Assembly: GCF_024198235.1 (NCBI RefSeq)
Contig: NZ_JAKCFB010000019.1
Coordinates: forward strand, 62,001 to 126,000
Source: Myxococcus dinghuensis
Lineage (GTDB): Bacteria; Myxococcota; Myxococcia; Myxococcales; Myxococcaceae
Direction of reading: 5' to 3'
Length of the DNA stretch: 64,000 nucleotides
Part shown: positions 9,596 to 55,750 of the stretch, piece by piece
Layout of the letters: each line of letters begins with the position of its first letter
Numbering within the stretch: position 1 is the stretch's first letter
Made by a program: the position numbers and the translations under genes
The notes under the pieces: generated by a model
What the model saw: only the letters and a program-made list of their open reading frames with translations
Told to the model about the DNA's origin: nothing
Databases searched by the model: none

Positions 9596-10857
9596 GGGCG
9601 GACGGCGGCGGTCAGCAGGTGCTGCCGCAGCATCTCCAGCGAATGGGAAGCGGCGAACAGCCGTACGCGGTCTCTATCTCCCGAGATGGAGATGCGGTCC
9701 ACCCGGGTGGGCACACCGGGCGCCGCGAGGCCGCAGTACACGGTGCCGACCGGGTCCTCGGGACTCCCTCCACCCGGGCCCGCGTATCCGGTCACGGACA
9801 GGCCATACGTGGCGCCGCACGCGGCGCGGATGCCCTCGGCCATCGCGAGAGCCGTCTGCCGGGAGACGGCGGAATGACGCTCGAGGACCTCGGGGGGAAC
9901 CCCCGCCCAGGCGGACTTCAGCTTCTCCGAGTAGACCACCGCCCCACCGACGAAGGTGTTGCTGGCCCCTGGCACCGCGGTGATGCGCTGGGCGACGAGT
10001 CCGCCGGTGCAGCTCTCCGCGGCCGCCAGCGTGGCACTCTCCCGACCGAGCAGACCGAGCAGGACCGGCACGTACTCCTCCGCGTCCGCACCGAAGACGC
10101 GCGGGCCCAACACGCGGCGACAGTCGGCCTCGACGGCGGCCAGCGCGGCGTCTGCCTCCGCCTGGGAGGGGGCCTCGGCCATCAGCTTGAGGTGGTTCTC
10201 CGGCGCGTGCGTCCGGAAGCCGAACACCACGCGGGGATGGAGCGGGGCGAGCGGCGCCACGGCCAGGTCCAGCTCCGACTCCGGGATGCCCACCGTCTTC
10301 AGCAGGCGGAAGGCACGGAAGACGCGCCCCGGGCGCGACTCCAGCTCCGTCTGGATGCGGGGGAGCACCACGGCGTTCAGCAGCGCGCGGAACTCCCTCG
10401 GGACGCCCGGCAGGAAGAAGAGCCGGCAGCGCCCCAGGGTGAGCACGACGAGGGGCGCCGAACCCTCCGGATTGCGCACCGGCTCCGCGCCCCGGGGGAT
10501 GCGCGCCATGCGCAGGGCGCTCGGGTTGATGGAGGCGCCTCGCGCGGCGTAACGCTCGCGCAGCCAGCCGAGCACCCGGGCGTCCTCCTCCAGGGGGACT
10601 CCGGCCGCCGAGGCCGCGCACTCCAGGGTGAAGTCATCGGCGGTGGGGCCCAGTCCTCCGGAGACGACCACCACGTCCGCGCGGGAGGCAGCCTCCAGCA
10701 GCGCCTGGGTGATGTCGGGGCGTACGTCGCCCACCAGCACCACGCGCTCGACCTTCACCCCCAGGTCGAACAGGCGCGCTTCCAGGTAGGTACTGTTCGT
10801 ATCGGTGATGAGGCCGGTGACCAGTTCGTCACCCGTACACAGCAGCTCGACGCGCAT
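9592..10857 (-). CDS. cinA: CinA-family protein (competence/damage-inducible, NMN amidohydrolase)
   Basis: This 421-residue protein has the full two-domain CinA structure. The N-terminal MoaB/MogA-like domain (MRVELLCTGDELVTGLITDTN, then VVVSGGLGPTADD) is a COG1058 pyrophosphatase-like module. The C-terminal domain (about residues 255-415; LAAAESCTGGLVAQRIT, VTGYAGPGGGSPEDPVGTVYCG) is the nicotinamide-nucleotide amidohydrolase (PncC) module that recycles NMN. In many bacteria cinA sits directly upstream of recA in one operon. Here the two are within 2.1 kb but convergent, separated by two genes. It overlaps the next gene by 4 nt and lies 135 nt downstream of pssA. Confidence 0.92.
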   Translation of the reverse strand: MRVELLCTGDELVTGLITDTNSTYLEARLFDLGVKVERVVLVGDVRPDITQALLEAASRADVVVVSGGLGPTADDFTLECAASAAGVPLEEDARVLGWLRERYAARGASINPSALRMARIPRGAEPVRNPEGSAPLVVLTLGRCRLFFLPGVPREFRALLNAVVLPRIQTELESRPGRVFRAFRLLKTVGIPESELDLAVAPLAPLHPRVVFGFRTHAPENHLKLMAEAPSQAEADAALAAVEADCRRVLGPRVFGADAEEYVPVLLGLLGRESATLAAAESCTGGLVAQRITAVPGASNTFVGGAVVYSEKLKSAWAGVPPEVLERHSAVSRQTALAMAEGIRAACGATYGLSVTGYAGPGGGSPEDPVGTVYCGLAAPGVPTRVDRISISGDRDRVRLFAASHSLEMLRQHLLTAAVRP

Positions 10858-13111: not shown

Positions 13112-14995
13112 TCAACGGTGGGGCCGGGGCCGCTCCAGCGATACGCAGCGCGCCTGCGTGCCCCGCAGGTCCTCCGCGCGCACGCGCGTCAACCGGACCC
13201 GCGTGGCCCCCGTGCATTCGGTCTCGACCAGGCCCCGCAGCGCGCCTTTCACGGAGAAGCCATCCACGCTCGCGGTGGCATCCTCCGCGACCGCCACGGC
13301 CCCCGCGACCGCCTCGCGCAGGTCGACCCCCGTCGCCTCCAGCGTCGCGCGGGTGTCCGCGAGCAGGCCCGCTTGCCCGCATCGCTCCAGTTCGATGTCG
13401 CGCAATACCGCCTTCGCGCCCTGGGCCACGAGGACACAGGCCCCCGCGGCGCCGCGCACCACCACGCCTTCGACGTCCGCGGCCCCCTGCCGCAAGTGCA
13501 GGGCCTCACCGTTGACGCCATCCCCGGAGCGCACGTTCACGAAAGTGCTGTTTCGCACGCGCACGCGGCCACCCATCGCCATGAGCCCGTATTCTGAAGC
13601 GTCCTCGACACGGAGCCGGTGCACGTCCGCGACGGACCCCACGAGTTGAACCGCTCCATGACCGCCACTGCCCCGCACGACCACGTCCTCCAGCGAGACG
13701 CCTCGTGAGGCCGCGACGGTCAGCCCCGCTCGCGTCGCCCCCAAGGACAGCAGGTCCCGCACGTCCAGCGTGTCGACCCGCGACGCGGAGACCGCCACCT
13801 CGAATCCGAGGACGCGAACGTCTTCCAGCGTCAGGCCCCCCTCCACCACCGAGAAGGCCGCGCCTGTGCCACGCTCGGCCGTCGCGCCCCGCACCCGGGC
13901 CGTCCCGCCGTCCATGCCCAACGCGGTGACGGGCCCCGTGAAGGTGACGTCCGCCAGTTCCGCGTGAGAGCCCGTGCCCCGCACCCGCACCGCGCGCCGG
14001 AAGGGCCCGACGAAGCGCACCTCCCGCAGCCACACCTCACGCGCTACCGCTCCGGACGCGGGCCCTGCGTCAGTCGAACCAGACACCGACCCACCCATGG
14101 CGAGACGCGGTCGACCTGCCTCCACAAGGGAGGCCGGCTCGCTCACCGCCCCGTCCCGTGTCGCTGCCTCGGCGCGAGAAGCCGGCTCGCTCACCGCCCC
14201 CTCCCGTGTCGCTGCCTCGGCGCGAGAAGCCGGCTCGCTCACCGCCCCCTCCCGTGTCGCTGCCTCGGCGCGAGAAGCCGGCTCGCTCACCGCCCCCTCC
14301 CGTGTCGCTGCCTCGGCGCGAAACGCCGGCGCGCTCACCACTCCCTCCCGTGTCGCCGCCTCCACTCGCGAGGCTGGCCCACTCACCGCTCCGCCTCGTG
14401 TCGCGGAATTCTCGATACGAGACCGCGCCGCGACCACAGGGGAGGCAGCCTCTGGCTCCACCAGCACGCCCACGGTCTCCGCCACCGTGGCCTCGAACCG
14501 CGACGCCTCCACTTCCAGGCGTCCCCCGGTCAGGCGCACCGCCCCGCGCCGCTGCCCGCCGAAGGTCATCCGCTCCAGCCGCACCCGCCCTCCCCCGGAG
14601 ACCTCCAGCCCCCAGGCGCCCCCCCGCACCTCGACTCCCGCCAGCGCGGCCCCGCCCGACACCCGCAGCACCGTGCCGTCCCCGTCCCCTTCCCCGGGCA
14701 GGAGGACCGCGCCCGCCCCCGCCCCCTCCAGCCGGGTGTCCGGGGGAACCACATGGGGCCCCGGGTAGTCCCCCGGAGCCAGGTGCACCGTCAGCGGCCC
14801 GCGACGGCCCAGCGCCTCGGACAGCGACCGCAGCGGCCGTGCCCGGCTCCCGTCACCGGGGGTGTCTCGCCCGGCGTCCACCCAGAGCTCGACACGGGCC
14901 TCACCCTCCGGGGAGGGGGCGGACGGACCCGTCCCCGGGCTCTTGCAAGCCGCGCACAGCAGGATCAGCAGCGCTGGAAGCGTCCGGTAGCTCAC
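13112..14995 (-). CDS. right-handed beta-helix lipoprotein with internal repeat insert
   Basis: The chosen start is GTG at 14995 (MSYRTLPALLILLCAACKSPG), because it gives a short lipoprotein signal with a candidate lipidated Cys17. The 627-residue product begins its mature part with WVDAGRDTPGDGSRARPLRSLSEAL, a typical DUF1565/Pbl-type entry to a parallel beta-helix. Many short strand repeats follow with V/L at regular spacing and turns such as GGxxxLEDV. Between the two helix halves (about residues 200-300) lies a Glu/Ala/Ser/Pro-rich insert made of six copies of a 16-residue repeat. Such helices bind polysaccharide or act as surface adhesins, but no catalytic residues can be assigned. Probable location is the outer membrane. 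Confidence 0.75.
   Translation of the reverse strand: MSYRTLPALLILLCAACKSPGTGPSAPSPEGEARVELWVDAGRDTPGDGSRARPLRSLSEALGRRGPLTVHLAPGDYPGPHVVPPDTRLEGAGAGAVLLPGEGDGDGTVLRVSGGAALAGVEVRGGAWGLEVSGGGRVRLERMTFGGQRRGAVRLTGGRLEVEASRFEATVAETVGVLVEPEAASPVVAARSRIENSATRGGAVSGPASRVEAATREGVVSAPAFRAEAATREGAVSEPASRAEAATREGAVSEPASRAEAATREGAVSEPASRAEAATRDGAVSEPASLVEAGRPRLAMGGSVSGSTDAGPASGAVAREVWLREVRFVGPFRRAVRVRGTGSHAELADVTFTGPVTALGMDGGTARVRGATAERGTGAAFSVVEGGLTLEDVRVLGFEVAVSASRVDTLDVRDLLSLGATRAGLTVAASRGVSLEDVVVRGSGGHGAVQLVGSVADVHRLRVEDASEYGLMAMGGRVRVRNSTFVNVRSGDGVNGEALHLRQGAADVEGVVVRGAAGACVLVAQGAKAVLRDIELERCGQAGLLADTRATLEATGVDLREAVAGAVAVAEDATASVDGFSVKGALRGLVETECTGATRVRLTRVRAEDLRGTQARCVSLERPRPHR
14113..14400 (-). 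repeat. six tandem 48-bp repeats inside the beta-helix lipoprotein gene
   Basis: Units begin at 14113, 14161, 14209, 14257, 14305 and 14353. The copies at 14161, 14209 and 14257 are identical at all 48 positions; the outer copies have diverged. All are in frame and encode the 16-residue unit EPASRAEAATREGAVS with variations. The pattern fits recent slippage or unequal crossing-over in a flexible loop. Confidence 0.95.
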
Positions 14996-19168: not shown

Positions 19169-22100
19169 TCAGTCGAACAGGCTCCGCGCGTACTCCGCAC
19201 GCAGGCGGTCGTCCCCCAGGGCCTGGGCGGCCTCGGAGAGCACGCTGCGCACCTGCTGGGCCCGGTGCTGGAGCGCGGGGTCCGGGTGTCCGGCGAAGCG
19301 CAGGGGGTGGAACTCGGCGGCGAGCAGTTCGTACGCCCGCTTGACCTCCTCGCCCCCCGCCGTGCGCGCCAGCCCCAGCACGGTGAAGTAGTCCGCGTCC
19401 TGGATCTCCTCGAACTTCGCCTCCAGCCGCCGGACGTCCAGTTCGGGGGGCAGGTCCCCGGTGTCGTCCAGCTCCGCGGGCTCGAGGACGATGAGGCCCA
19501 GGGCCCGGGCCACCGCGAGCGACTTGAGCGCCGAGTCCTGCGGCACCCCCGCCCCCAACAGCAGGGCCTCCAGGGTGTGCTCGCCATCCACCTGTGACAA
19601 CAACTGGAGGTCCCGCTGCGACAGGCCGAAGTCGTCCGGGGCCAGGTGCAAATCCCCCCGGCGGACGCGGGCGCGGAGGCTGCCCGCGACCTCCATGAGC
19701 GAGTCGCCGGTGAGCGTGTTGCGCAGGGCCTCCGCCAGGAGGTGCAGCGGCGGACGCGTGGCGGCGGCGAGCGCGACCTCGTGCGGCGCCGGCTCCTTCA
19801 CCAGTCGGTACAGCGTGGAGGGTTCGGCCAGGGCGTCGAGGAACACCTGCTCGGTGTAGCGCTGGACCAGGGGCACGGCCTCGGCCTCGCGCAGGTAGCC
19901 GCGTCCGCGCAGCGCATCCAGCAGCGCGCCGGTGGAGGCGCTGCGCACCAGCCGCAGCTCTCCCTCCTGCCGCGCGTCGATGAGCCCGTCCGCGCGGGCA
20001 CGGTCGACGAGTGACTCTCCCGGCGAGGAGGACACGGCGCCGACGAGCGCGCCATCCCGGAGCCACAGGATGCGCAGCGCGTTCATCACCTTCAGCTCCA
20101 GGCGCACCTCCATGCGCGCCTCGCAGAGACGGAGCACCAACCGCGTCAACCCCTCCTGGGTGACGCTGCCGCTGCGGGACACCGCCAGCTCCGGCCGGCC
20201 CGGAGGCGCCTCGAGCGGCAGCAGCGCGGCGCGGGCCTGGGCCGCGGCTTCCTCCGCCTCGCGACGGCCCCGCTCCTCCAGCTCCACACGCTCGCGCTCG
20301 GCGCGCTCCCGCTCCCGGGCGGACTCGGCCTCCAACCGGGCCTTCTCGGCGCCCAGCGCGTCCAGGGCCTTCGCCACGCTCTCGCGGGCCTCCTGCTCCC
20401 GCGCGAGCGACTCCCCCATCCGCTCGAGCTGCGACTGGACCGCGGCGAGCTGCTCCGCGAAGCGCGTGGACTCCGCCTGGAGTCGTGACTCCGCGGCGGC
20501 GCGGGCCGAGGAGGCCTCATCGATGCGAGCCTCGGCCGCCGCGCGCTGACGGGATTCGGCCTCCAACCGGACCTCCAGCGCGGTGCGGTGACGGCCCTCC
20601 GCGGTGGCGCGGGCGTCCGCGTCCGACTCCGCCTGGGCGGCCTTCTCGATGCGCGCCTCCGCATCCTGTCGTGCCTTCTCCTCGGCGGCGGCGCGCGCTT
20701 CGGCCTCCGCGCGGGCCTTCGCCTCGGTGGCGGCGCGCGATTCAGCCTCCTCGTGCGACAGCACCTCGGCGCGCAGGCGCTTCTCCATCTCGAGCCACGA
20801 GGCTTCCTCGGCGGCGACCTTCGCCTCCAGCGCCGCGCGTTGGCGCGACGCCTCCGCGGCCCTCGACTCTGCCTCCTCACGGGCCTTCGCCTCGGTGGAG
20901 GCGAGCAGCTCCGCCTCCTCGCGGGACTCGGCTTCCGTGCTCGCGCGCGACTCCGCCTCCTCGCGCGCACGGGCCGCGGCCTCCGCGCGGGCCTCCGCAT
21001 CCAGGCGGGCCTTCGCCTCGGCGGCGGCGCGCGCTTCGGCCTCCTCACGCGCCCGCGCTTCCCGCGTGGCCCGGGCCTCCGCCTCGGCCTTCGCGAGGGC
21101 CTCTACCTCCGCGCGAGCGCGGGCCTCGGACGACGCGCGAGTCTCCAGCTCCGAGACGGCCAGGACCTCGGCCTTGGCACGCGCCTCGACCTCCGCGCGG
21201 GCGCGCGTCTCGGCTTCCGCGCGCGTCTCGGCCTCCGTGCGAGCACGGGCCTCCAGCTCCGACTGCGCCTCGGCCTCCGCGCGGGCGCGCGTCTCGGACT
21301 TCAGACGCGCCTCCGCCGCCGTGCGCGCCTCCGTGGCCGCCTCCGCGCGAGCCTCCGCCTCCGAACGCGCCAGGGCCTCCGCGCCAGCGCGGACCTCCGC
21401 CTCGATGGTGGCGACCTCCGCCGCGCGCAGCCGCGTCTCCAACGCCTGGCGGGCGCGCGTCTCGGCCTCGGCGCGCGCCTCGGATTCGACCCGACCCGCG
21501 GCCTCCTGTTCGAGCCGCGCCTCGATCTCCTTCGCCGCCTGAGCCGCCGCGGCGCCGTGGGTCTCCGCCTCGATGCGCTCCGCCTCCACCGAGCGAAGCT
21601 TCGCCTCGAGCGCCACGATGCGGACTTCCGCGTCCGACCGGACCAGCGCCTCCTGGTCGGAGCGCGACTGGGCATCATCGCGCGCGAGGGACACGTCGCG
21701 CAGCCTCCGCTCCACTTCGGCGCGCACCTCGGCTTCGCGAGCGGACTGGGCCTCTCCCACCTCGGCGCGGGCGAGCGCTTCCGCGAGCTGACGAGACAGG
21801 GCCTCGCGCTCGTTCCGCGCAGCCTCGAGTTCGCCGCGCAGCGTGGTGACGTCGCCCTCTCGCGCCTCGATGCGCCCCAGCGTCGCCTTCGCCTCGGCAT
21901 CGAGGGTGGCGCGCGCCTGGGTCTCGGACTCCGCGCGGGCCTCCGACTCCGCCAGACGCGCTTGGAGCGAAGCCAGCTCGGAGCGGTGCTGTTCCCGCGT
22001 CTCCGTCGCGCTCGCCTCCAGCTCGGCCTCGCGCTGACGCGACCGCGACAGCTCGTTCTCGAGCTCCGAGCGCAGCCGCGCCTCTTCAGCCCGCGCGGCT

Positions 22101-25100
22101 TCGAGCTGCTGCTCCATCTCCGCGCGGAGCGTCGTCTCTCGCGAGAACTCCTCTTCGAGCGAGGCGAAGCGCTCCTGCAAGGAGTGAAGCTGCTTCGCGT
22201 CCTCGGAGCGCTCCGACTCCAGGCTCTCGCCCTGGAGACGCACGGCCTCCAGGCTGGCTTCGGCCGCCTGCCGCCGCGTGGACTCCTGCTCCTTCGCGGT
22301 CTCCGCCTCGACCCGCAACGCGGCTTCTCGCTCGAGAACACCCCGGAGCGATTCGTTCAGCTCACGCAGCTCCTCGGCGCGTTGCTCGAAGCTGGCCCGC
22401 TGGGTGGTCTGGGCCTCCAGCTCCACCTTCAGCGTGTGGACGCGCTCGTGTGCTTCCTCGAGCTGTCGCTCCGTCTCCTCCTGGCGGGCACGCCACTCCG
22501 CCATGATTTCGGGGGAGATGGACATGGCGCCCGACATCGCGGGGGCAGACTCCTCCGAGACCACGGGAGCAGCGTCCGGGCGCTCTTCCGCCCCCGCGTC
22601 GAACCAGCCCGAGCCTGGAGCAGGCTGGGCCGACGACACTTCCTCTCCAGGAGATGCGGGGTCGCTGGCGTCGTGAGCAACCGGAGACTCGGCTGCGTCC
22701 GGAGTCGAATCGAACCAACCCGCGCCCGGGTCCGTGGGTGCCGCTTGCGTGCCCTCAGCGGACTCGGTCGTCGAGTCGAACCAGCCCGCGCTCGGGTCCG
22801 TGGGCGCCGCGCCGACGGTTTCATCGGTCCACGCAGCGCCCTGGGTCTCTTCGGGAGGCTGCGCGGCTTCGGCACCAGGTGCCCCGCTCTCACCCGGGTC
22901 CGACGACGACGCGACCGCCACATCGGGCATCGCTTCGGCCGAGACAGCCGAATCCTCGCCCGACTCCGGCAACGGCTGCGACTCCGTGGCACCTGCCATG
23001 TCGGACGTCGAGTCGAACCAACCCGCGCTCGGGTCCGTGGAGGCCTGCGCGTCGCCCCCCGACGTCTCATCTTCCCAGCTTGCATCCGAGGCCACGGGGG
23101 CCGCGTGCGTAGTGCCTTGCGACTCCGTCGCCGGGTCGAACCAACCCGCGCTCGGGTCCGTGGACGGCTGCGGTGCCACATCGGAGGTCGAATCGAACCA
23201 GCCGGCGCTCGGGTCCGCGGACGTGACCTGCGCGGCGTCCGGCCCCGTCGCCGTATCGGACCAACCTGCGTTCACATCCTCCGAGGACTGCGCGGATGAG
23301 GTCTCAGCAACAGCGGCTGACACATCGGACCAGTTGGCGCTCGCATCGTCCGAGGCCGTGGACTCAGCATCGCCGGATGTCGGATCGGACCAGCCGGCAC
23401 TCGCGGCCTCCGTGGACTGCGATGCCGCGGACTCAGCATCGCCGGACATCAGTTCGGACCAGCCCGCGTTCGCATCCTCAGTGGAATGAGGGGCTGTGGA
23501 CGCAGCAACGTCGGATGTCGAATCGGACCAGCCGGCGCTCGCATCCCCCGAGGACTGTGCGGTCGCGGACTCCGAAGCGTCAGACATCGAATCGGACCAG
23601 TCCGCGCTCCCATCTCCCGAGGACTGTGGGGCCAGGCTCGCAGCAACGTCGGATGTCGAATCGGACCAGCCGGCGCTCGCATCCTCCGAGGACTGTGCGG
23701 TCGCGGACTCCGAAGCGTCAGACATCGAATCGGACCAGTCCGCGCTCGCATCTACCGAGGCCTGCGACGCCGAGGCGCCGCCAGCATCAGACGTCGAGTC
23801 GAACCAGCCCTCACTCGCAGCCGCCGAGGCCTGCCCAACCGAAGCACCCGCAGCTTCAGACGTCGAGTCGAACCAGCCCGCGCTCGCATCTACCGGAGGC
23901 TGCGACGGCGAGGCACCTGCAGCATCAGACGTCGAGTCGAACCAGCCCTCACTCGCAGCCGCCGAGGCCTGCCCGACCGAAGCACCCGCAGCTTCAGACG
24001 TCGAGTCGAACCAGCCCGCGCTCGAATCCGCTGGAACCTGCGATGCCGAAGCACCCGCAGCTTCAGACGTCGAGTCGAACCAGCCCGCGCTCGCATCCGC
24101 TGGAACCTGCGATGCCGAAGCACCCGCAGCTTCGGACGTCGAGTCGAACCAGCCCGCGCTCGCATCCGCTGGCGCCTGCGCAGCCGAGGGCGCAGCGGCG
24201 TCAAACGTCGAATCAGCCCCGTCCGGCCCCATATCAGCCGGGCCCCGCGACGCCCCGGAATCAGCGCCGTCGGACGTCGAATCGAACCAGCCCGCGCTCG
24301 CATCCGCAGGCACCTGCGGTTCCGTGGCGACAGCGGTTTCAGACGTCGGATCGAACCAATCCGCGCTCGGGTCCGTCGCGGGAGACACCGTCGCCGACGT
24401 CACCGGCGGTGCGGAGTCCCCCGAAGTCGGCGGTGAACCATCCGCCCAGCCAGCAACCTCGGCGGGCCCCGCTTCGTCGCCAGTCGGCGAAGACTCCTCT
24501 CGCGGAGCCGCATCCTCATCATCTCCGTCGGCGCCGCGAGCCTTGGCCTGCAACTCCGCCTCGAGAAAGTCCCAAGGCGAGGGCGGCAGGGACTCCTCTT
24601 CCTCTTCCGACGCGCTGCTCGACTCGGCCGAGGGCGGCTCGGGTGAGTTCCTCGCATCCGTGAGCCACCCTCCCTGCTCCAGCTCCGGGTCGGGAGGCAG
24701 CTCCGTCCAGGGCGAGGTGTCGGAGAGACTCGCGGCACCCGCCGGAGCGCCCCGCATCGCGGCCAGCTCCGCTTCCGCCGCGGACAACGCATCCGTTGAC
24801 GAAGGCGCGGCCGCATCGACGTCGAAGAACCCCGCATCCCCCAATCGAGGCGCATGACGCGCGGGGCCCGCCGCATGCGCGGACGACACCGGCTCCTCCG
24901 TCCACGCGAGCTTGCCCACCGGCAAGGACTCCTCGGAGGGGAGGTCCTGCTCGGTCGAGGCATCCGGCTCCGCGTGTCCCTGGTTCGCCGCCCACTCCAG
25001 CGCACTCTCCAACCCCGGAGGACGCACACCGTAGAGCACCGTCGCGGGACCACCAGGAGGAGGTTCCGTCCCCTCCATCGAGAAGGAGGTCTCGCGCCCT

Positions 25101-26155
25101 TCCGCCGCGTGCGGCTCACCACTCCCGTACGCGGCGTCGATGGCCGCGTCGTCATCATGCGGTCCGTCCTCGAAGGACGTCGCGGACGCCGAACCCCAGT
25201 CCCCTTCCGCGGAGAGGCCATATTGCACGGCCGCATCGGTGTCCGCCGGAGAGCCCGAGTCATCGACCGGCGCGATGCCGCTCGCGACCGCCGGGTCATG
25301 ACCCTCGCCGCCGTACGCCGAGGCCCCCTCCAGCACGCCGTCCTGCTCCCCGGAGAACCCTCCGACCCCCTCCGCTGGAGCCTCCGCGTCGGCGGCCATC
25401 TCGTGAGGAGGGATGCCACCTTCGTCGGTGCTCGGGTCATCCGGCTGGGAGCCATCCACCGCCGCGCCCCAGTCCTCGCCTCCGCGCACCCGCGCGGTGT
25501 CGATCGAGGCCCGCGCCGCCGCGTCCATCTCCTGGTCCGCCTGTTGGAGCGCGGCATGGACGTCCACCCCCGAGTGCCGCTCCTGCTCCTCCGCGCGCGC
25601 CGTGCGCTCCTCGCGCGTCATCGCCGCCAGCTCCCAGTCCGCCTGGTGCAGGGGCGTCAGGTCGCCGAACAGCGCGTTCGCCAACGTGGCGTCACCGGCC
25701 ACCTTCGAGGGCGAGGTCGCGTGCCAGGCCTCCGCGTCGTCCTTCCCGCGCGCACCGCCGCTCTCCGGCAGGGAGCGGTTCTCCACCACGTGCCACGCAT
25801 CCGCGGAGTTCGCGGGCGCGCGGAGGGTGGAATCCACCAGCGCCACGAAGCTCGTCCCATCCAGGGGCAGCGGCGCCACGGGAGCGCTGAAGCCGGGCAC
25901 GGGCTCCCCGAGCAGCAGCACCCGGGCGTGCTTCCCCTCCGGATGCTGGAGCAGCTCCTCCAGGACCACGCGCCCCCGGCCGCTCTCCACCCCCGGGGCG
26001 AGCACGATGAGCGCGGGCAGGTGGTGCCCATAGGCGATGAGCGCATCCGCGGCGGAGGTGACGAGGATGACCTCGTGCCCGTCGCGGGTGAGCAGGCGCC
26101 GCACAGCGGCGATGGTGGCGATGTCGTCGTGGACGAGGAGGACCGGTGCGCCCAT
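19169..26155 (-). CDS. giant scaffold: pseudo-receiver, W-[FS]-D repeats, coiled coil, DUF4388-like, degenerate J-domain
   Basis: This 2328-residue protein has five parts. Residues 1-110 look like a CheY receiver (VLLVHDD at 5-11), but the phosphoacceptor site reads LIVLAPG with Ala53, and the usual Thr/Ser and Lys are also missing, so it is a pseudo-receiver. Residues about 115-590 are acidic and low-complexity. Residues about 595-1190 hold some 24 repeats around W-[FS]-D. Residues about 1217-1970 are a very long Glu/Ala/Arg-rich coiled coil. The C-terminus has a DUF4388-like region (about 1985-2110), a linker, and a J-domain-like end (about 2254-2328; DYFTVLGLA) in which HPD is HPL. The layout recalls the M. 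xanthus polarity proteins FrzS and AglZ (pseudo-receiver plus coiled coil). It begins 15 nt after priA and is probably co-transcribed. A polar or cytoskeletal scaffold role is inference. Confidence 0.85.
22592..24373 (-). repeat. array of about 24 W-[FS]-D coding repeats, 69-bp base period
   Basis: The base unit is 23 residues (69 bp), for example [20 protein letters not shown] plus three more. Matching points at 23992, 24061 and 24130 are exactly 69 bp apart. In the centre, Ser replaces Phe (W-S-D), and pairs of units form a 138-bp higher-order repeat (23511 and 23649). Copies near both ends are W-F-D and spacing becomes irregular after about 23200. All copies stay in frame. Confidence 0.93.
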
Positions 26156-34572: not shown

Positions 34573-37500
34573 TCAGCGCGAGGCGCGCAGCGCGAGGTAG
34601 CGCTCGGACGCGGCGAAGCGCAGCAGCTCCACCAGCTCCGCGTCCTGCGAGCGGCGCGAGCGGATCACCGTCACCGCGGGGCCCACGCCCCCACAGGCCA
34701 CGAGCCCGGCGCGGTTGGCGGAGTCGCGCGCGGCGTCCGCCAGGGCGGAGGCGTTGAAGTCGCGCATGCCGGGCTCCAGCAGCTCCCGCGTGCGCTCGAG
34801 GGAGCGCGGGGAGAGCGACTCGCGCACGAGGCGCGCGTCGGCGCCGGAGTCCTTCGGGTCCTTGAGCACGGTGGCCAGCAGGGCCAGGGCGCGCAGGAGC
34901 TGGGCGCCCTTGAGGGCTCGCAGCGCGAGCAGGTCCGGAGAGAGCGAGAGCAGCGCCCGCCCCGCGTGGAAGCGCAGTACGGCGGCGGGCAGCTCCTGGC
35001 GCACCACCGCGCGCCCCAAGATGAGGCGCGGGTGGCCCACGTGCATGGCGGTGAACGGCGGCCCGTCGTCGTCGGCGAGGATGAGCTCCGGCAGGTTCAT
35101 GGACAGCACCCGCGCGGAGGCGTGCAACGCGTCCAGCACCAGCGGCGCGCCGGGACCCGAGCCGGCGCGCAGCGGCTCCGTGGCCTCCGCGGCGCGTCCC
35201 TGGGCGGGGAACAGGCGGCACAGCGCGATGCCCGCGCAGGCGAGCAGCTCTCCCGAGGCGGTGCGGAGCCCCGGGTGACGCAGTCCCGCCCGCTCCTCGA
35301 TGGACAACGGCTGACGATGCAAGCGCGGCTCGGGGGACTCCTTGTCCTCGAGCGCGTCGACGATTTCGCGCATGAGCACGGCGCGCGGCGCATCGCCTCG
35401 CGTGTCGAAGAAGTCCGCGAGCTGGGTGTACGTCGCCGTGTCGAGCGGACGCTCACGCAGTTGGCGGAAGGCATCTGGTTCCGTGTCCGCCGGGGCCTGG
35501 TGCGCGGGCTCCGGGACGACGGGGTTCTCGCGCGTCTCCGAGGAGCCCACCGTGGGGGGCGCGGCAGGCTTCGAGATGAAGGTGCGGCCGGGGGCGGGAC
35601 CCGCGGCCGTTCCTTCGGAGCGCGAGCGGATGACCCGGCGCACCGGGTCCATGCGTCCGGGCGGTGCTTCCCAGGAGATGACCCGTGTCTCCGGCACCGG
35701 CGCGGCGTCGAGGTCGAGCTCCGTCCCGGTCATCAGGTCCATCCCCTTGCCACGGCCCCCCGCGGCTCGAGGCGGAGGACGGGCCGCGTCCCGCGAAGCA
35801 GGAGACGCGTCGGGGCGCGACGCGCCACGTGCGCCCGCCGCGTCGTCCACCGGAGCGGGACTGGTCGCTCCTGGTGATTTGGGCACGGAGGGAGCCCCCT
35901 TCTCCGGACGCTGCACGGGGACGTTCGCGCCGAAGACGACGGTGGAGCCCGAGGCCATGGACTTGTCGGGGGCGGGCTGCGCCACGCCGGGGCGCTCGGG
36001 GCGGGACGCGGGCGGAGCCGACTCGGGAGGCGCCGCGGACTTCGCTCCACGCGCCGGAGCCTTGTCCGCACGCGCCGCGACATCCCCTTCCGCGCGCGCC
36101 GAGCCACCACCCGCAGCCGGCGCGTTCGGGGACTTCTCGCCGCGAGTTGCGGGTGGCGCCGCCGGCACAACCGCCTTCTCTTTCTGAGGCGCCTGCACGT
36201 TCTCCGCGCCGGCCCGAGGTCCTCTCGCAGGCGCCTGTGAACCCGTGGGCCCGGAAGCCGCCGCTCGCTCACTGGGAGCCGCAGGCTGCGAAGCCTGCAC
36301 AGCCGCCCGCTCGCTCTGAGGCGCCTGCACGTTCTCCGCGCCGGCCCGAGGTCCTCTCGCAGGCGCATGCGAGCCCGTGGGCCCGGAGGCCGCCGCTCGC
36401 TCACCGTGCGTGGCTTGTCCCCCATCCCCACGAGACGCTTGCGCGGTCTCGGCCGCCCCGGACCGGCCCCCTCGTTGCGACGGAGCACTGGAGACGGCCG
36501 GACGCTCTGGCTTCGCACCAGCCTCCGGTCGAGGACTCCTGGCCGCTGGCGCGGCGTCCTCGGGCCGCACATGCGTGCGTTCGTCCTGGAAGTCGGCCGC
36601 CGACACCTTGCGTGCCTTGGGGTCGCTGGGCTGCGGCGCGCCGGCATCGTCGGTGCTGGAGGTCACCTCCTCGGAGAGGTCGTTCGCGCCTGCTCGCGCC
36701 AGCGAGCTGGTCACCACGGGCGGCGCAACCAACGCTGTCTTCGGACCACTCGGCTCGCGTCGCGGAGTCGCGCTGCGAGGAGGCTCCGGCGGAGGCAGTT
36801 GCTCACGTTCCTCGCGCGCGAGCCGAATCCCCTCGGCGCGCCGCGCGTAGACCTGGGCCCGCTCGGGATTGCCGAGCGCATCGCGCCACATCCGGGCGAG
36901 CCGATCCCAGGTCTGCTCGCGCTCCAGCTCGTCCTCCATCGCCGTCGCCGCGTGCTCCAGCGCCCACGCGGCCTCGCCCTTGTTGCCGCGCGCCTGCAGT
37001 CGCTCGACCAGCAGCAGCCAGGCCTCCTTGTGCCCAGGCTCGTAGCGCACCGCCTGCCTCAGCTCGTTGAGCGCGCCCTCCGCGTCGCCTCGCGCCTCCA
37101 GCGTGGACACCAACTCCAGGCGCGCCTGACGCGCGACGGGGCCACGAGGCTCCTGGGTAATCTGCGCGCGCAACAACTGCCCCAGGGCCTGCGCGTCCCC
37201 CAGCTCGCGCGCGAGCGCCAACAGTCGCCCCCGCGCCAGTTCGCTCTCGGGAGACTCCGCGAGCACCTCGGTCCAGGCCCACTGCGCCAGCCGCGCGTCC
37301 TTCAGCGATTCCTCCGCGGTCCGGGCGAGGACTCGCAGCGCCTCGATGCGGTCGGGCGCGCGCCGCGACGTCTGGGCGAGCACGTGCCGCAGTCGCTGCG
37401 CGACGGCGAGCTGCTCGGCGGGCTCGACACCGAGGAGCAGCCCCGAGAGCACGGGCAGCAAGCCCGGCACCAACGCGTCCGCGGCCTCGAAGTCCGCGCG

Positions 37501-40218
37501 CGCCTTCTGGCGCTCCCCCATGTGGAGCCACCGCTCGCCCCGCGTGAGCAGCGCCGTGGCCCGCGCCCGTCCGGTCTTCGCGCGATGAATCGCATCGTCG
37601 AGCGCGCGACGCACGAGCGACGCATCATCGCGGGAGGACAACAACCGCACCTGTTCCCGCAGGGCCGCGCGGTCGCCCGTCAGGTCGACAATCTCGCGGT
37701 ACATGCGCGCGGCGCCAGCCGGGTCCTGGAGCTCGTTCTCCATGACCTCCGCCAGCCGCGTCAGCGCATCGGCACGGGCCGCGGCGTCCTTCGCCCTGTC
37801 CGCTCGCTTCAAGTAGAGCTGGGCCAGATCCTTCCAGGCCCGACGCGCGACGAGCTGCGCCTCCAGCTTCTGCGAGCGCGCCAACTCCTCCGCATCCTCT
37901 TTCGCGCTCGCCTTCGCATCCGTGGGAGCCCGCGCGCTCCCAGGAGCGGCCCCCCCCTCCACGCGGACTCCCGCCGCGTGCGTAGGAGGCAGGGCATCGG
38001 ATGCGCCCTTTCGCGCCGGCTCGACGTTCGTTCCGGGCACACCGCCCAGCGCGGCGAAGAGGTCCGCGAGCGGGACCTCCGTCGTCTCGGAACGCGGCGC
38101 CTCCGCGTCGTGGGCGCCAGGGAGCGGAACCTCCTGCGTTTCCGAGCGCGGCGCCCGGGCCACCGCTTCGCGCGGAGGCGAAGCGGGCTCGAGGACGGGA
38201 ATGTCTCTTCCCTGATGTGCCGGCCGCGAGGAAGACAGGGGGCGGCCCACAGCAGGCGCCTGTTTCGGCTCTTCCGGGCTCGACTCAACCGCCCACGGGA
38301 CGGACAAGTCTTCACGGCCCTGCGCGGCAACCGGAAGCACCACGACCGGCATCTCCACCACGGTCCGCGCCGCGGGAGGCGAGTCACTCGGCCCCGCCAC
38401 GAGGGGCATCTCCACGACCGTCTTCGCCCGCGAGTCCTCCGGCCCGCCACGCGCCTCGCGTGGACGTTGCGTGGATTCGGGAACGCCCCCTGCGCGAGAC
38501 GCCGCGCCGACAGCGGAGGGCAACGCCGAAACGGAAGGTGCCGCTCGCGCGACCTCGACAGGTGCCGGCACGAAGGACGAAGCAACCACCGCGCTGGAAT
38601 CGGATGCGGCCTTCCCAGACTGAACTTGCGGAGCCGTGGGCGAATTCCCAGCGCCCGGTGACGACTCGGTCGCCGGACGAGCACCAGATGTCGTGGTCCC
38701 GTCCCCACCAACGGGCTCGAGACTAGACACGAGGGCGCCAATGTTTGATGCCGATGCGGTCGCCGGACGAGCATCGGGCGCCGCAGTCCCATCCCGAGCC
38801 CCTGAAACCGTGGGCTCAACCCCAGATACTGTAGGCCCTGGGCCCGTTGACGATGCGGACGCCGGACGGGGACCCGACGCCGCGGTTCCATCCCGAGCGC
38901 CTGAAGCCGTGGGCTCAACCCCAGACACCTTGGGTCCCGCGTCTGATGACGATGCGGTCACCGGACGGGCACCGGACGTCGCACTCCCGTCGCTCACGCC
39001 CGGAACATCACCCGGCCCGATGACAGGCTCGTGAACCGGGTTCGTCGACGGCCCCTGCGCATCCCCGACAGGCGTCCCTGATTCGGAAACCGAGCGCACG
39101 ACGGCCCCGGACTCCACCGAGGCCGAGTGCGACGCAGTCGACTCCGCCGAATCGCTGCCCTCTCCCGCCAGGGGGACCGGCGAAACGGACGCGACCGGCG
39201 CATGGGACGACACCGTCCCGACCGGAGGCACGGCGTCATCACTCCACGGAACCAGCGACTCCGCGGACACTGGTGGCGCGGACACCACCGGCGCTCCGTC
39301 CCGGTGGACCACGACCGGCGCCCCCCGAGACTCCGACGGAGGCGGGACGGTCGGTGCCGCAACGGCGGACTCCGGCTTCGTCGCCTCGGCTGCGCCCTGC
39401 TCCGGTGTCGACACCGAGTCCAGATGCGCCGCCTTCTCGCCCGACGTCGAGGGGACAGTGCCAATCACCACCCCAGGCACCACGAGCCGCGCATCTGCCA
39501 CGGTCGTCAGCCCCAGCGGGTGACCATCCACCTGGAGCTGGGCCCAGGGCAGCTCCACCGTGAGCGAGCGCGGAGGCGCGGAGACGGCGGGCGGCGGAGC
39601 CAACGCGCCCGTGACATCCACCACGGTCTCCGCCCGGACATCGACATCTTCATCCCAGACCGCGGAGGCCTGGACGCCAGACTTCAACGTGGGGCGCTTC
39701 GCCAGCACGGAGCCCGGGGGCGTGGACACCTCCGGACCTCGCGCGACCACCCGACCTCGCAGCACCTCGAGCACCCTGCTCGCGCGACGGTCCCCAGGGG
39801 ACTCGACGAGCAGTGGCTCCAGTGTCGCGATGGCGCGGGGGAGCTGCTCCACGCGACGCAGCACCCGGGCCAACTGCCTGCGCACCGCGCGCTGGACGTC
39901 GGTGGAGGCCGTGACGAGCGAGGCCTCCAGCAACGTGATGGCCGCGGCCTCCGTCCCCGCCATCCGCGAGAAGCGCACGAGCGAGGCGGCGAGGCGCGCG
40001 GACATGGGCAGCACGCGGCTGGCGCGCGCCAGCTCACCGAACGCGCGCGCGGCGGAGCCGTCCCGCCACAAGCGCACGGCGGCCTGGAAGTGGCGCTCCA
40101 CTCCTGCTGCCGCATCCTCGGTATTCCCGACATCGAGAGCGCCAGACTGCGGCGCTTCGGGTCGGACGGCGAAGGGAACCGGCGTCTCGGTCCCCTTGCC
40201 GTTTCTCACGCCACCCAT
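34573..40218 (-). CDS. 1881-residue TPR scaffold with low-complexity linkers and conserved C-terminal domain
   Basis: No signal peptide or membrane segment is visible in this 1881-residue protein. Residues about 30-160 are a helical repeat (TPR-like) region. Residues about 250-760 are Pro/Ala/Ser/Thr-rich low complexity with short repeats. A second TPR block is at about 768-1143 (motifs such as LAEVMENELQDPAGAARMYR, and AWALEHAATAMEDE). Another Ala/Pro/Arg-rich linker follows, with a 132-bp direct repeat. A compact C-terminal domain is at about 1570-1881 (LDTATYTQLADFFDTRGD, FHAGRALLSLSPDLLALRAL). It looks like the tail of myxobacterial TPR proteins and recalls an inactive M48-like fold, which is a guess. 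Its start is only 24 bp from the divergent GT2 start, so the true start may be further in. Confidence 0.75.
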   Translation of the reverse strand: MGGVRNGKGTETPVPFAVRPEAPQSGALDVGNTEDAAAGVERHFQAAVRLWRDGSAARAFGELARASRVLPMSARLAASLVRFSRMAGTEAAAITLLEASLVTASTDVQRAVRRQLARVLRRVEQLPRAIATLEPLLVESPGDRRASRVLEVLRGRVVARGPEVSTPPGSVLAKRPTLKSGVQASAVWDEDVDVRAETVVDVTGALAPPPAVSAPPRSLTVELPWAQLQVDGHPLGLTTVADARLVVPGVVIGTVPSTSGEKAAHLDSVSTPEQGAAEATKPESAVAAPTVPPPSESRGAPVVVHRDGAPVVSAPPVSAESLVPWSDDAVPPVGTVSSHAPVASVSPVPLAGEGSDSAESTASHSASVESGAVVRSVSESGTPVGDAQGPSTNPVHEPVIGPGDVPGVSDGSATSGARPVTASSSDAGPKVSGVEPTASGARDGTAASGPRPASASSTGPGPTVSGVEPTVSGARDGTAAPDARPATASASNIGALVSSLEPVGGDGTTTSGARPATESSPGAGNSPTAPQVQSGKAASDSSAVVASSFVPAPVEVARAAPSVSALPSAVGAASRAGGVPESTQRPREARGGPEDSRAKTVVEMPLVAGPSDSPPAARTVVEMPVVVLPVAAQGREDLSVPWAVESSPEEPKQAPAVGRPLSSSRPAHQGRDIPVLEPASPPREAVARAPRSETQEVPLPGAHDAEAPRSETTEVPLADLFAALGGVPGTNVEPARKGASDALPPTHAAGVRVEGGAAPGSARAPTDAKASAKEDAEELARSQKLEAQLVARRAWKDLAQLYLKRADRAKDAAARADALTRLAEVMENELQDPAGAARMYREIVDLTGDRAALREQVRLLSSRDDASLVRRALDDAIHRAKTGRARATALLTRGERWLHMGERQKARADFEAADALVPGLLPVLSGLLLGVEPAEQLAVAQRLRHVLAQTSRRAPDRIEALRVLARTAEESLKDARLAQWAWTEVLAESPESELARGRLLALARELGDAQALGQLLRAQITQEPRGPVARQARLELVSTLEARGDAEGALNELRQAVRYEPGHKEAWLLLVERLQARGNKGEAAWALEHAATAMEDELEREQTWDRLARMWRDALGNPERAQVYARRAEGIRLAREEREQLPPPEPPRSATPRREPSGPKTALVAPPVVTSSLARAGANDLSEEVTSSTDDAGAPQPSDPKARKVSAADFQDERTHVRPEDAAPAARSPRPEAGAKPERPAVSSAPSQRGGRSGAAETAQASRGDGGQATHGERAAASGPTGSHAPARGPRAGAENVQAPQSERAAVQASQPAAPSERAAASGPTGSQAPARGPRAGAENVQAPQKEKAVVPAAPPATRGEKSPNAPAAGGGSARAEGDVAARADKAPARGAKSAAPPESAPPASRPERPGVAQPAPDKSMASGSTVVFGANVPVQRPEKGAPSVPKSPGATSPAPVDDAAGARGASRPDASPASRDAARPPPRAAGGRGKGMDLMTGTELDLDAAPVPETRVISWEAPPGRMDPVRRVIRSRSEGTAAGPAPGRTFISKPAAPPTVGSSETRENPVVPEPAHQAPADTEPDAFRQLRERPLDTATYTQLADFFDTRGDAPRAVLMREIVDALEDKESPEPRLHRQPLSIEERAGLRHPGLRTASGELLACAGIALCRLFPAQGRAAEATEPLRAGSGPGAPLVLDALHASARVLSMNLPELILADDDGPPFTAMHVGHPRLILGRAVVRQELPAAVLRFHAGRALLSLSPDLLALRALKGAQLLRALALLATVLKDPKDSGADARLVRESLSPRSLERTRELLEPGMRDFNASALADAARDSANRAGLVACGGVGPAVTVIRSRRSQDAELVELLRFAASERYLALRASR
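36185..36370 (-). repeat. 132-bp direct repeat in the TPR scaffold gene
   Basis: Two copies start at 36185 and 36317 and share a core of about 50 identical bases. They encode the linker unit ERAAASGPTGS with GPRAGAENVQAPQ, in frame, 44 residues apart. Confidence 0.8.
38661..38990 (-). repeat. 90/99-bp coding repeats in the TPR scaffold linker
   Basis: Four in-frame copies of a unit around GARPxTASS...SGVEPTxSGARDG. The reference point recurs at 38671, 38761, 38860 and 38959 (spacing 90, 99 and 99 bp, or 30 and 33 residues). It is a Ser/Ala/Pro linker with no enzymatic motif. Confidence 0.8.
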
Positions 40219-54156: not shown

Positions 54157-54242
54157 GCCTCGGCGGGGTCCTTCCGCACGGGAAGGTCACCCGGCACGAG
54201 GTGTCCACCTTGGGGCGAAACCGCCCGCGCGCCCGGAGAGGG

Positions 54243-54480
54243 GCGGCGCCTCCCGACACGTCAGGGAGGAGGCTTGCCGCCTCCCTCGCCCTGCCTCCCC
54301 GCGAGGAGCAGGTCGAGCGGAGGCCCGGCACCTCCGGACATGTCAGGGAGGAGGCTTACCGCCTCCCTCGCCCGGCCTCCCCGCGAGGAGCAGGTCGAGC
54401 AGAGGCCCGGCGCCTCCGGACACGTCAGGGAGGAGGCTTGCCGCCTCCCTCGCCCTGCCTCCCCGCGAGGAGCAGGTCGA
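54243..54480 (-). repeat. 82-bp tandem repeats carrying the 3' end of the membrane-anchored gene
   Basis: About 2.9 copies with the reference point TCAGGGAGGAGGCTT at 54261, 54343 and 54425, exactly 82 bp apart. The copy at 54425 is the real 3' end of the minus-strand gene. The other copies repeat its last codons (LDLLLAGRQGEGGGKPPP) and stop codon without a gene in front. The copies differ at only a few positions. Confidence 0.92.
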
Positions 54481-55750
54481 GCTGCTGCTGGGCGTCGATG
54501 ACGTCGCCGGTGTACTCGCCGATGTAGCGGCGGCGCACCTCGCTCTGCCACTCGTCGGGGGAGAACGACGACGCCGGGTACTCGTGCGTGGTGTGGACGT
54601 CGCCGCGCAGCGTGGCCATCAGCTCGCGGTCCGGGTCCCCCGACTCCTTGAGCAGGAAGCCCTCCACGTCGCGCAGCTTCAGCGGGAAGGCGGGCCCCTC
54701 GTCGTGGATGAGCTTGCCGAAGACGGTGAGCTTCACCTCCTGCGAGCCCTCCTTCAGCTCCTCGTTGAAGGAGATGTGCGCGAACGGCTCGCCGCCTTCC
54801 GCGTCCACGCGACCCGCCACCACGTACCGCCCCGCCTTGCGCACGTTGATGCCCAGGTAGAGCATCAGCGAACCGTCCGTGACCTCCTCGCGCACCTTGC
54901 CGGTGAAGGTCGCCGGCGGTGAGGGCGTATAGAGGATATCCATGAAGGCCGTGCCCTCCGCCCGGTCCGAGCGCACCACCACATCCACGCGCAGCGTGCC
55001 GGAGAACAGCGGGAAGCCCTGCTTCGCCGGCTGGAACCGCCCGGTGAACACGCCATCCCCGGCGAGCGCGTCACCGCCGATGCCGTCGTCCGTGAAGGTC
55101 ACCGGCACCGCGGGCACCGCGCCCGCGCCATGGATGTACTCCGACTCGTGCGCGGAGGCGGACAGCACCTGGCAGGGCCGGGACTGCCGCTGGGCGTCCT
55201 CGCAGGACACGAAGAAGTGCACCACCTCCTCGCCCACCACGAACACCCGGTCCTGCTTGAGGCGCAGTTGCACGTCCGCGTGCTCGCGGCTGAGCGGACG
55301 CAGGCGCTCCGGCTCGGCCAGCGTCGTCTGGTCCGGGTGCTCCCGGATGGGCCGGGACTGCGGCGGATAGCGCGTGGCGGCGACGTAGGACTCCAACGTC
55401 CGCTTCGCGCGCTCCAACCGCTGGCGCCACAGGTCGATCTGCGCCTGCCGTTCCCGCTCCTTCTCCGAGGGCACCGGAGCGCCATCCGCCCCGGCCGGGT
55501 GTGGTGCCCCCATGGCGGAGGCACCCGCGGAGCCACTCCCACCCGCCGCCCTGGGCGAGACATCCACCGTCGTCGCGACCGGGACACCCGGGGCCGCGGA
55601 GGCGGGCTCCACCTCGGCGCCCTCCCGGGCGTCCCCGCCCCGTAGCCCCCACCATCCCACGGCCCCCAACACCACGAAGAGGGACAGGAGGACCCACCCG
55701 GCGCGACGCGCACGGGAGGCTGCGGAGGAGACGGGGCCAGTGGATGTCAT
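54425..55750 (-). CDS. membrane-anchored extracytoplasmic protein (choice-of-anchor X-like), partner of lipase
   Basis: This 441-residue protein has one N-terminal membrane helix (about 17-36, WVLLSLFVVLGAVGWWG), an Ala/Pro/Gly-rich linker (about 40-90), a helical part (RQAQIDLWRQRLERAKRTLE) and two or more beta-rich modules. The segment VTFTDDGIGGDALAGDGVFTGRF is typical of the 'choice-of-anchor X' module. The last residues come from an 82-bp repeat. It starts 24 nt after the lipase-like gene and is probably co-transcribed. A single-pass anchored helper behind a secreted lipase resembles the layout, not the sequence, of lipase-specific foldases; that role is inference. Confidence 0.7.
   Translation of the reverse strand: MTSTGPVSSAASRARRAGWVLLSLFVVLGAVGWWGLRGGDAREGAEVEPASAAPGVPVATTVDVSPRAAGGSGSAGASAMGAPHPAGADGAPVPSEKERERQAQIDLWRQRLERAKRTLESYVAATRYPPQSRPIREHPDQTTLAEPERLRPLSREHADVQLRLKQDRVFVVGEEVVHFFVSCEDAQRQSRPCQVLSASAHESEYIHGAGAVPAVPVTFTDDGIGGDALAGDGVFTGRFQPAKQGFPLFSGTLRVDVVVRSDRAEGTAFMDILYTPSPPATFTGKVREEVTDGSLMLYLGINVRKAGRYVVAGRVDAEGGEPFAHISFNEELKEGSQEVKLTVFGKLIHDEGPAFPLKLRDVEGFLLKESGDPDRELMATLRGDVHTTHEYPASSFSPDEWQSEVRRRYIGEYTGDVIDAQQQLDLLLAGRQGEGGGKPPP

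Follow-up and report, generated by a model that had tools for sequence, protein, structure and literature searches.

Our results indicate that the predicted beta-helix lipoprotein encoded on the minus strand of the window (the whole 64-kb stretch of Myxococcus dinghuensis DNA that was analyzed) carries an in-frame 48-bp tandem array in one turn of its helix. The insert that holds this array is nearly absent from the sister species, and inserts have expanded repeatedly and independently at the same few turns in orthologs. We consider it probable that the insert is an in-frame minisatellite grown in a turn of an envelope beta-helix, neutral or loosely constrained. The most likely interpretation is that repeat growth is tolerated here, rather than that the loop serves recognition. 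The features are as follows.

13112 to 14995, minus strand: predicted beta-helix lipoprotein gene, 627 aa, with a putative GTG start at 14995 (open reading frame, start Val, Pfam and structural model).
14945 to 14995, minus strand: signal peptide and candidate lipid-attachment Cys (codon 14945 to 14947), with Lys at +2 (comparison of N termini).
14036 to 14449, minus strand: whole insert at site A, 138 aa, with 6 aa in the nearest relative (ortholog comparison).
14054 to 14395, minus strand: disordered part of the insert, residues 204 to 317, predicted at pLDDT below 50 (AlphaFold).
14357 to 14404, minus strand: repeat unit 1, diverged, ATRGGAVSGPASRVEA (unit alignment).
14309 to 14356, minus strand: repeat unit 2, ATREGVVSAPAFRAEA (unit alignment).
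14165 to 14308, minus strand: repeat units 3, 4, and 5, identical in DNA, ATREGAVSEPASRAEA (unit alignment).
14117 to 14164, minus strand: repeat unit 6, diverged, ATRDGAVSEPASLVEA (unit alignment).

The array comprises six in-register units of 16 codons each (14117 to 14404), in frame with the minus-strand gene, and is described by TRF as period 48, 5.7 copies, 91% match, and score 411. The original prediction was right about a 48-bp repeat with six in-frame units, three of them identical; its coordinates, 14113 to 14400, were off by 4. All 48 bases are the same in each of units 3 to 5 (14165 to 14308), to which units 1, 2, and 6 show 73%, 90%, and 85% identity, respectively, and the commonest unit peptide is accordingly ATREGAVSEPASRAEA. 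The self-match of the insert at period 48 is 0.708, versus a maximum of 0.452 at any period in 1,000 codon shuffles. The units are rich in Ala, Ser, Arg, and Glu and are flanked by non-repeat sequence inside the 138-residue insert. GC3 is 0.70 in the insert versus 0.90 and 0.88 in its flanks, and the share of ILMFWYC residues is 4% in the coding frame versus 7 to 22% in the other five frames. We also rejected coding on the antisense strand of the array. The plus strand does contain long open frames, as the high GC content would lead one to expect, but the GC3-GC2 difference is larger in the minus frame (0.23 versus 0.17), and it is this frame that has orthologs. A mobile or dispersed element was ruled out because no second good copy of the repeat array was found in the 10.4-Mb genome, the other matches listed being short with E values of at least 0.03. 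That the copy number, or the array itself, is an error of draft assembly is very improbable. The genome is a 124-contig draft with an identical tract of 144 bp, so the unit number may be miscounted, but the edge units differ, the frame is kept, and independent arrays are present in the single-contig genomes G014, G017, and G021.

The start Val is invariant in 14 sequences. The Pfam Beta_helix profile (PF13229) matches the protein with 25.4 bits (E value of 1.2e-05), just under the curated cut-off of 25.9, and Pfam-type profile scans gave no family above cut-off for the window protein. An AlphaFold model based on 25 sequences has a mean pLDDT of 81.3, with 431 of 630 residues at 90 or above, and supports a continuous right-handed parallel beta-helix with a pectate-lyase-like fold. 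Most of the helix before and after the insert is predicted at a pLDDT of at least 95. The insert is placed between the strands at 178 to 182 and 322 to 327, which we read in the model as the turn from strand 1 to strand 2 of one coil. In the model of the G004 ortholog (mean pLDDT of 73.9), the insert lies three coils earlier, between strands 124 to 129 and 333 to 341, and there too the helix is ordered and the loop is mostly below 50. Because an ordered helix surrounds a loop of pLDDT below 50 in both models, the insert appears to be a side loop of one helix rather than a linker between domains. The model thus agrees with the original prediction on two points, the beta-helix, which is modeled as continuous, and an extendable loop between two parts of it, which is hydrophilic and predicted to be disordered. 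The possibility that the units form extra coils of the helix was rejected, since the segment is predicted to be disordered and the units have 16 aa versus approximately 20 to 24 for a coil. The best structural matches of the model are solved beta-helices of many functions, with Z scores of up to 34.2, including the Pam1 tailspike (7eea_B; Z of 34.2 over 433 residues) and NosD (7osf_A; Z of 28.9 over 299 residues). A fold shared with solved beta-helices shows no function, and no catalytic or metal function of NosD, tailspikes, or pectate-lyase-like proteins is transferable to the window protein. A knotted-solenoid protein from Brevundimonas was also considered and, going by the accessible part of its description (PMC13123833), is unrelated.

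Within the family, 78 of the 96 genomes have the C-terminal half of the gene (E value of 1e-15), as do 26 of the 27 genomes of the genus (E value of 1e-30), and the locus is conserved. With one genome sampled per species, 66 of the 78 genomes and one half gene provided 67 loci, of which 57 were used as rows; insertions were counted beyond residue 20, with columns occupied in at least 70% of the rows as the reference. Insertions of more than 5 residues occur at only three places in these 57 orthologs, after window residues of approximately 120 (site B), 175 (site A'), and 185 (site A). Elsewhere the largest internal insertion is 5 residues, and the C-terminal coils have none above 5 aa. Internal insertions range in length from 0 to approximately 250 residues. 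Site A holds inserts of 254 (G014), 152 (G017), 136 (window), 109 (G021), 96, 87, 71, 69, 67, and 54 to 55 residues (the last in six rows), site A' of 163 (G072) and 144 (G083), and site B of 201 (G004), 81, and 71. These values are counted between core columns, and other anchors give 2 more at site A, hence the 138 residues listed above for the window. Nineteen rows, all from outside the genus, have 1 to 2 residues between the site-A anchors.

When mapped on a tree built from the conserved columns, the seven rows (of 57) with at least 100 inserted residues require 7 changes, and the 15, 2, and 3 rows with at least 50 residues at A, A', and B require 5, 2, and 3 changes, respectively; at least 30 residues are inserted in 22 of the 57 orthologs. 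Close relatives differ sharply. The window protein has 138 residues where the sister species G011 has 6, at a core identity of 69%; G004 has 201 at site B versus 12 in G013, at a core DNA identity of 94.5%; and the sister pair G072 and G073 has 163 versus 17. These data support fast change of both loop length and unit sequence between species. The fixed copy number that the original prediction named as evidence against itself was not found between species, where length and units both differ. Five species of the M. xanthus group all have 57 residues without an array (49 in the dropped row L021), which indicates that the loop is not always unstable.

Ten loci were left out of the rows: L021, with a chimeric open reading frame (insert of 49 aa); L029, in which the middle part is missing; L061, L065, L072, L075, L083, L090, and L094, at contig ends; and L093, with its halves in different frames. 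In the seven draft genomes with a contig end within the gene (L061, L065, L072, L075, L083, L090, and L094), the break points differ. We considered whether the repeat causes these contig ends and rejected this, as the ends examined fall at differing, non-repeat points; the printed contig starts of L061, L065, L072, and L075 lie outside repeats. In G016 (L021 and L047), a peptide-synthetase-like open reading frame and the C-terminal part of the gene form one in-frame fusion, probably through misassembly. The record behind L048 (BNCN01000002.1) is titled Comamonas sp. KCTC 72670, yet it contains this Myxococcus gene and its neighbors and looks mislabelled or mixed.

The main periods found by TRF are 48 bp in the window, 90 in G017, 42 in G021, 36 in G014, and 60 in both G004 and G083; all are multiples of three, and the unit peptides are unrelated. 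TRF was run on segments of at least 25 aa at A or A', a scan that left out the site-B inserts of L006 and L011 and covered L008 improperly. An array was found in six of seven inserts of at least 100 residues, the exception being that of G072, counted there as a 171-aa insert. Of the inserts of 50 to 99 residues, 11 at site A were scanned, and a single array was found, that of G009, which is weak (period of 18 bp, 2.0 copies, score of 51). Repeats therefore mark the longest inserts, and the shorter long ones are mostly non-repetitive. The lack of arrays in G072 and in most inserts of 50 to 99 aa suggests that arrays are lost by decay with age or that the loop is also lengthened by other processes. 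The fall in GC3 is not general, as the inserts of G021 and G023 show no drop. Of 25 inserts, 16 have their strictly lowest share of ILMFWYC among the six frames in the coding frame; in 3 the coding frame ties for lowest, and in 6 another frame is lower. Comparison of adjacent units gives a pN/pS ratio of 0.35 for the window array and 1.11, 0.60, 2.30, 0.70, and 0.68 for the others, versus 0.25 to 0.48 for the core in nine comparisons; the unit ratios pool adjacent pairs less than 35% different (24 of 29 pairs), and the value for G083 comes from a single pair. These ratios say that the units are probably under looser constraint overall than the core, the window array excepted, with unit exchange and small numbers limiting their weight.

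In the interpretation that we favor, slippage in replication or unequal recombination would add or remove 48-bp (16-codon) units, and the identical central units would be the newest copies. The hydrophilic, predictedly disordered peptide would loop out and leave the helix unbroken, so that selection may tolerate it, and the loop would be mostly neutral or only loosely constrained. Two observations qualify full neutrality. The pN/pS ratio of the window array, as low as that of the core, is a hint of some constraint on the unit peptide. In addition, if any turn could take an insert, the C-terminal coils should have some as well, yet none there exceeds 5 aa, and the restriction to three turns counts against full neutrality.

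This restriction raises the possibility of a selected spacer, that is, a loop kept and tuned in length to reach or shield peptidoglycan, a partner protein, or another cell, for which repeats would offer a quick change of length. We regard such a spacer as unlikely, if worth keeping in mind. It would fit the confinement of large inserts to three turns in 57 orthologs, the position of sites A and B, both strand-1 to strand-2 turns as read from DSSP, the many independent refills (with 22 of 57 orthologs at 30 aa or more), and the residue content of the coding frame (strictly poorest in ILMFWYC in 16 of 25 inserts, with 3 ties and 6 failures). It is at odds with the many orthologs, sister species included, that have only 0 to 6 aa, with insert sequences that are unrelated between lineages, and with similar turnover in the linker of a TonB-dependent receptor. 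We entertain with considerable doubt a further proposal, in which the flank of the helix would be a fixed nursery of repeats and the disordered arm would be selected while its sequence and length are reinvented, giving a tunable spacer or contact whose sequence is largely irrelevant. The orthologs form a natural series, with loops of 0 to approximately 250 residues at the same turns of a single conserved fold, across dozens of species. This series can be used to study the origin of coding minisatellites and to ask if disordered loops are under selection or neutral.

Variation for surface recognition or of an antigenic type, in which the repeat number would differ between strains and alter recognition by kin, phage, or predators, is in our view highly improbable. 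The change between species is rapid, as such a role would have it, and the structural matches include pertactin (2iou_G), a beta-helix of the cell surface whose loops are polymorphic in repeat number (PMC8931430, in its accessible part). The 2iou_G chain, which we take to be the pertactin chain of its complex, aligns with the model with a Z score of 25.7 over 362 residues at 12% identity. According to the accessible part of PMC8931430, the beta-helix of Bordetella pertactin has two large, variable loops composed of repeats (R1 and R2), with repeat numbers that differ between alleles; the authors treat the role of these loops as an open question. Like the window protein as modeled, pertactin is a right-handed parallel beta-helix with large repeat loops between its rungs, and in predicted anatomy it is the closest analogue. 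Pertactin differs in being the passenger of an autotransporter, displayed on the outer surface, and in having proline-rich repeats; for the window protein, a lipoprotein lacking a barrel is predicted, its units are rich in Ala, Ser, Arg, and Glu, and the units of its relatives are unrelated. No translocator beta-barrel was found, as only six residues, up to residue 630, follow the last strand (621 to 624), and the Pfam scan gave no barrel family. Without an autotransporter barrel, the window protein is not a member of the pertactin family. In the literature covered, with subscription papers mostly outside its scope, nothing was found on the window protein or its repeats.

The label "lipoprotein" is a prediction based on the conserved N-terminal Cys (Cys20, kept in at least 90% of 25 sequences). 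Position -3 of the lipobox is an unusual Cys in the window protein, and several orthologs have no clean lipobox. The predicted mature protein starts with CKSPGTG, with Lys at +2 and Gly, not Ala, at +7, so that the mark of extracellular-matrix lipoproteins, Ala at +7, is absent from the window protein. The accessible part of a study of M. xanthus (PMC3222651) reports Lys at +2 in 8 of 12 inner-membrane lipoproteins, a tendency to Ala at +7 in matrix lipoproteins, and continued export of the matrix protein FibA after addition of a +2 Lys. The +2 Lys leans towards retention of the window protein at the inner membrane, and the surface location assumed in the original prediction is unsupported, given this residue and the lack of a +7 Ala (PMC3222651, same part). 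Most orthologs have Arg or Ser, not Lys, at +2, and the family is therefore not assignable to one location.

The neighboring genes encode, by Pfam, an M23 peptidase, a bacterial DNA-binding (HU/IHF) protein, and an alpha/beta hydrolase, and the next gene is presumably pssA, judging from its sequence. All five genes occur together at 10 of 19 named loci, the hydrolase and pssA at 18, and HU and M23 at 11; most gaps in the set are contig ends, the exception being L047, where another open reading frame replaces the upstream part. The protein and three neighbors gave 0 matches to PADLOC families at an E value of 0.01. A defense or kin-discrimination locus was thus rejected, and the role in kin discrimination or phage defense first suggested for the loop fares no better, as a PADLOC match is absent and the neighbors are conserved. 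The array periods, being multiples of three, also make on/off frameshifting unexpected. Fast change is the one observation that speaks for a recognition device, and we find no support for such a role.

Tandem arrays are not peculiar to this gene. TRF finds 8 arrays with scores of at least 200, 5 of them at least 400, in a 400-kb sample of the genome, and 6 and 4, respectively, in the 64-kb window; with several equally strong arrays in the sample and the window, the window array is not rare in kind. As a control we used the gene at 9942 to 13301 of L107, which we take from its sequence to be a TonB-dependent receptor. It was picked from six array-bearing stretches because its array is clean and its envelope nature was plain to see, and is thus an illustration, not an unbiased rate. 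This receptor has a 39-bp array near its N terminus, and its conserved part is present in 27 of 27 genomes of the genus. Upstream of that part, differing TRF arrays (score of at least 50, best periods of 21 to 147 bp) occur in 24 of the 27 Myxococcus genomes (L107 and L117 to L143). Like the beta-helix protein, the receptor is an envelope protein with species-specific in-frame tandem repeats in a low-complexity segment; it differs in that this segment is N-terminal, not a beta-helix turn, and rich in Ala, Gln, Pro, and Thr. Like turnover in an unrelated envelope protein makes a cause specific to recognition unnecessary. Repeat turnover in Myxococcus is not a peculiarity of one gene, and arrays alone should not be taken as a sign of recognition or defense.

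Other repeats were noted in the window. The gene at 19169 to 26155 (minus strand) encodes a 2,328-residue protein with a C-terminal DnaJ domain and has a 69-bp array of 13.8 copies at 23352 to 24305, in which one peptide recurs, and further repeats at 20651 to 21388. The gene at 34576 to 40218 (minus strand) encodes an 1,881-residue protein with 99-bp and 132-bp tandem repeats and no Pfam match at an E value of 0.001. At 54237 to 54482, an 82-bp unit, not a multiple of three, is repeated three times with a 92% match and overlaps the 3' end of a minus-strand open reading frame.
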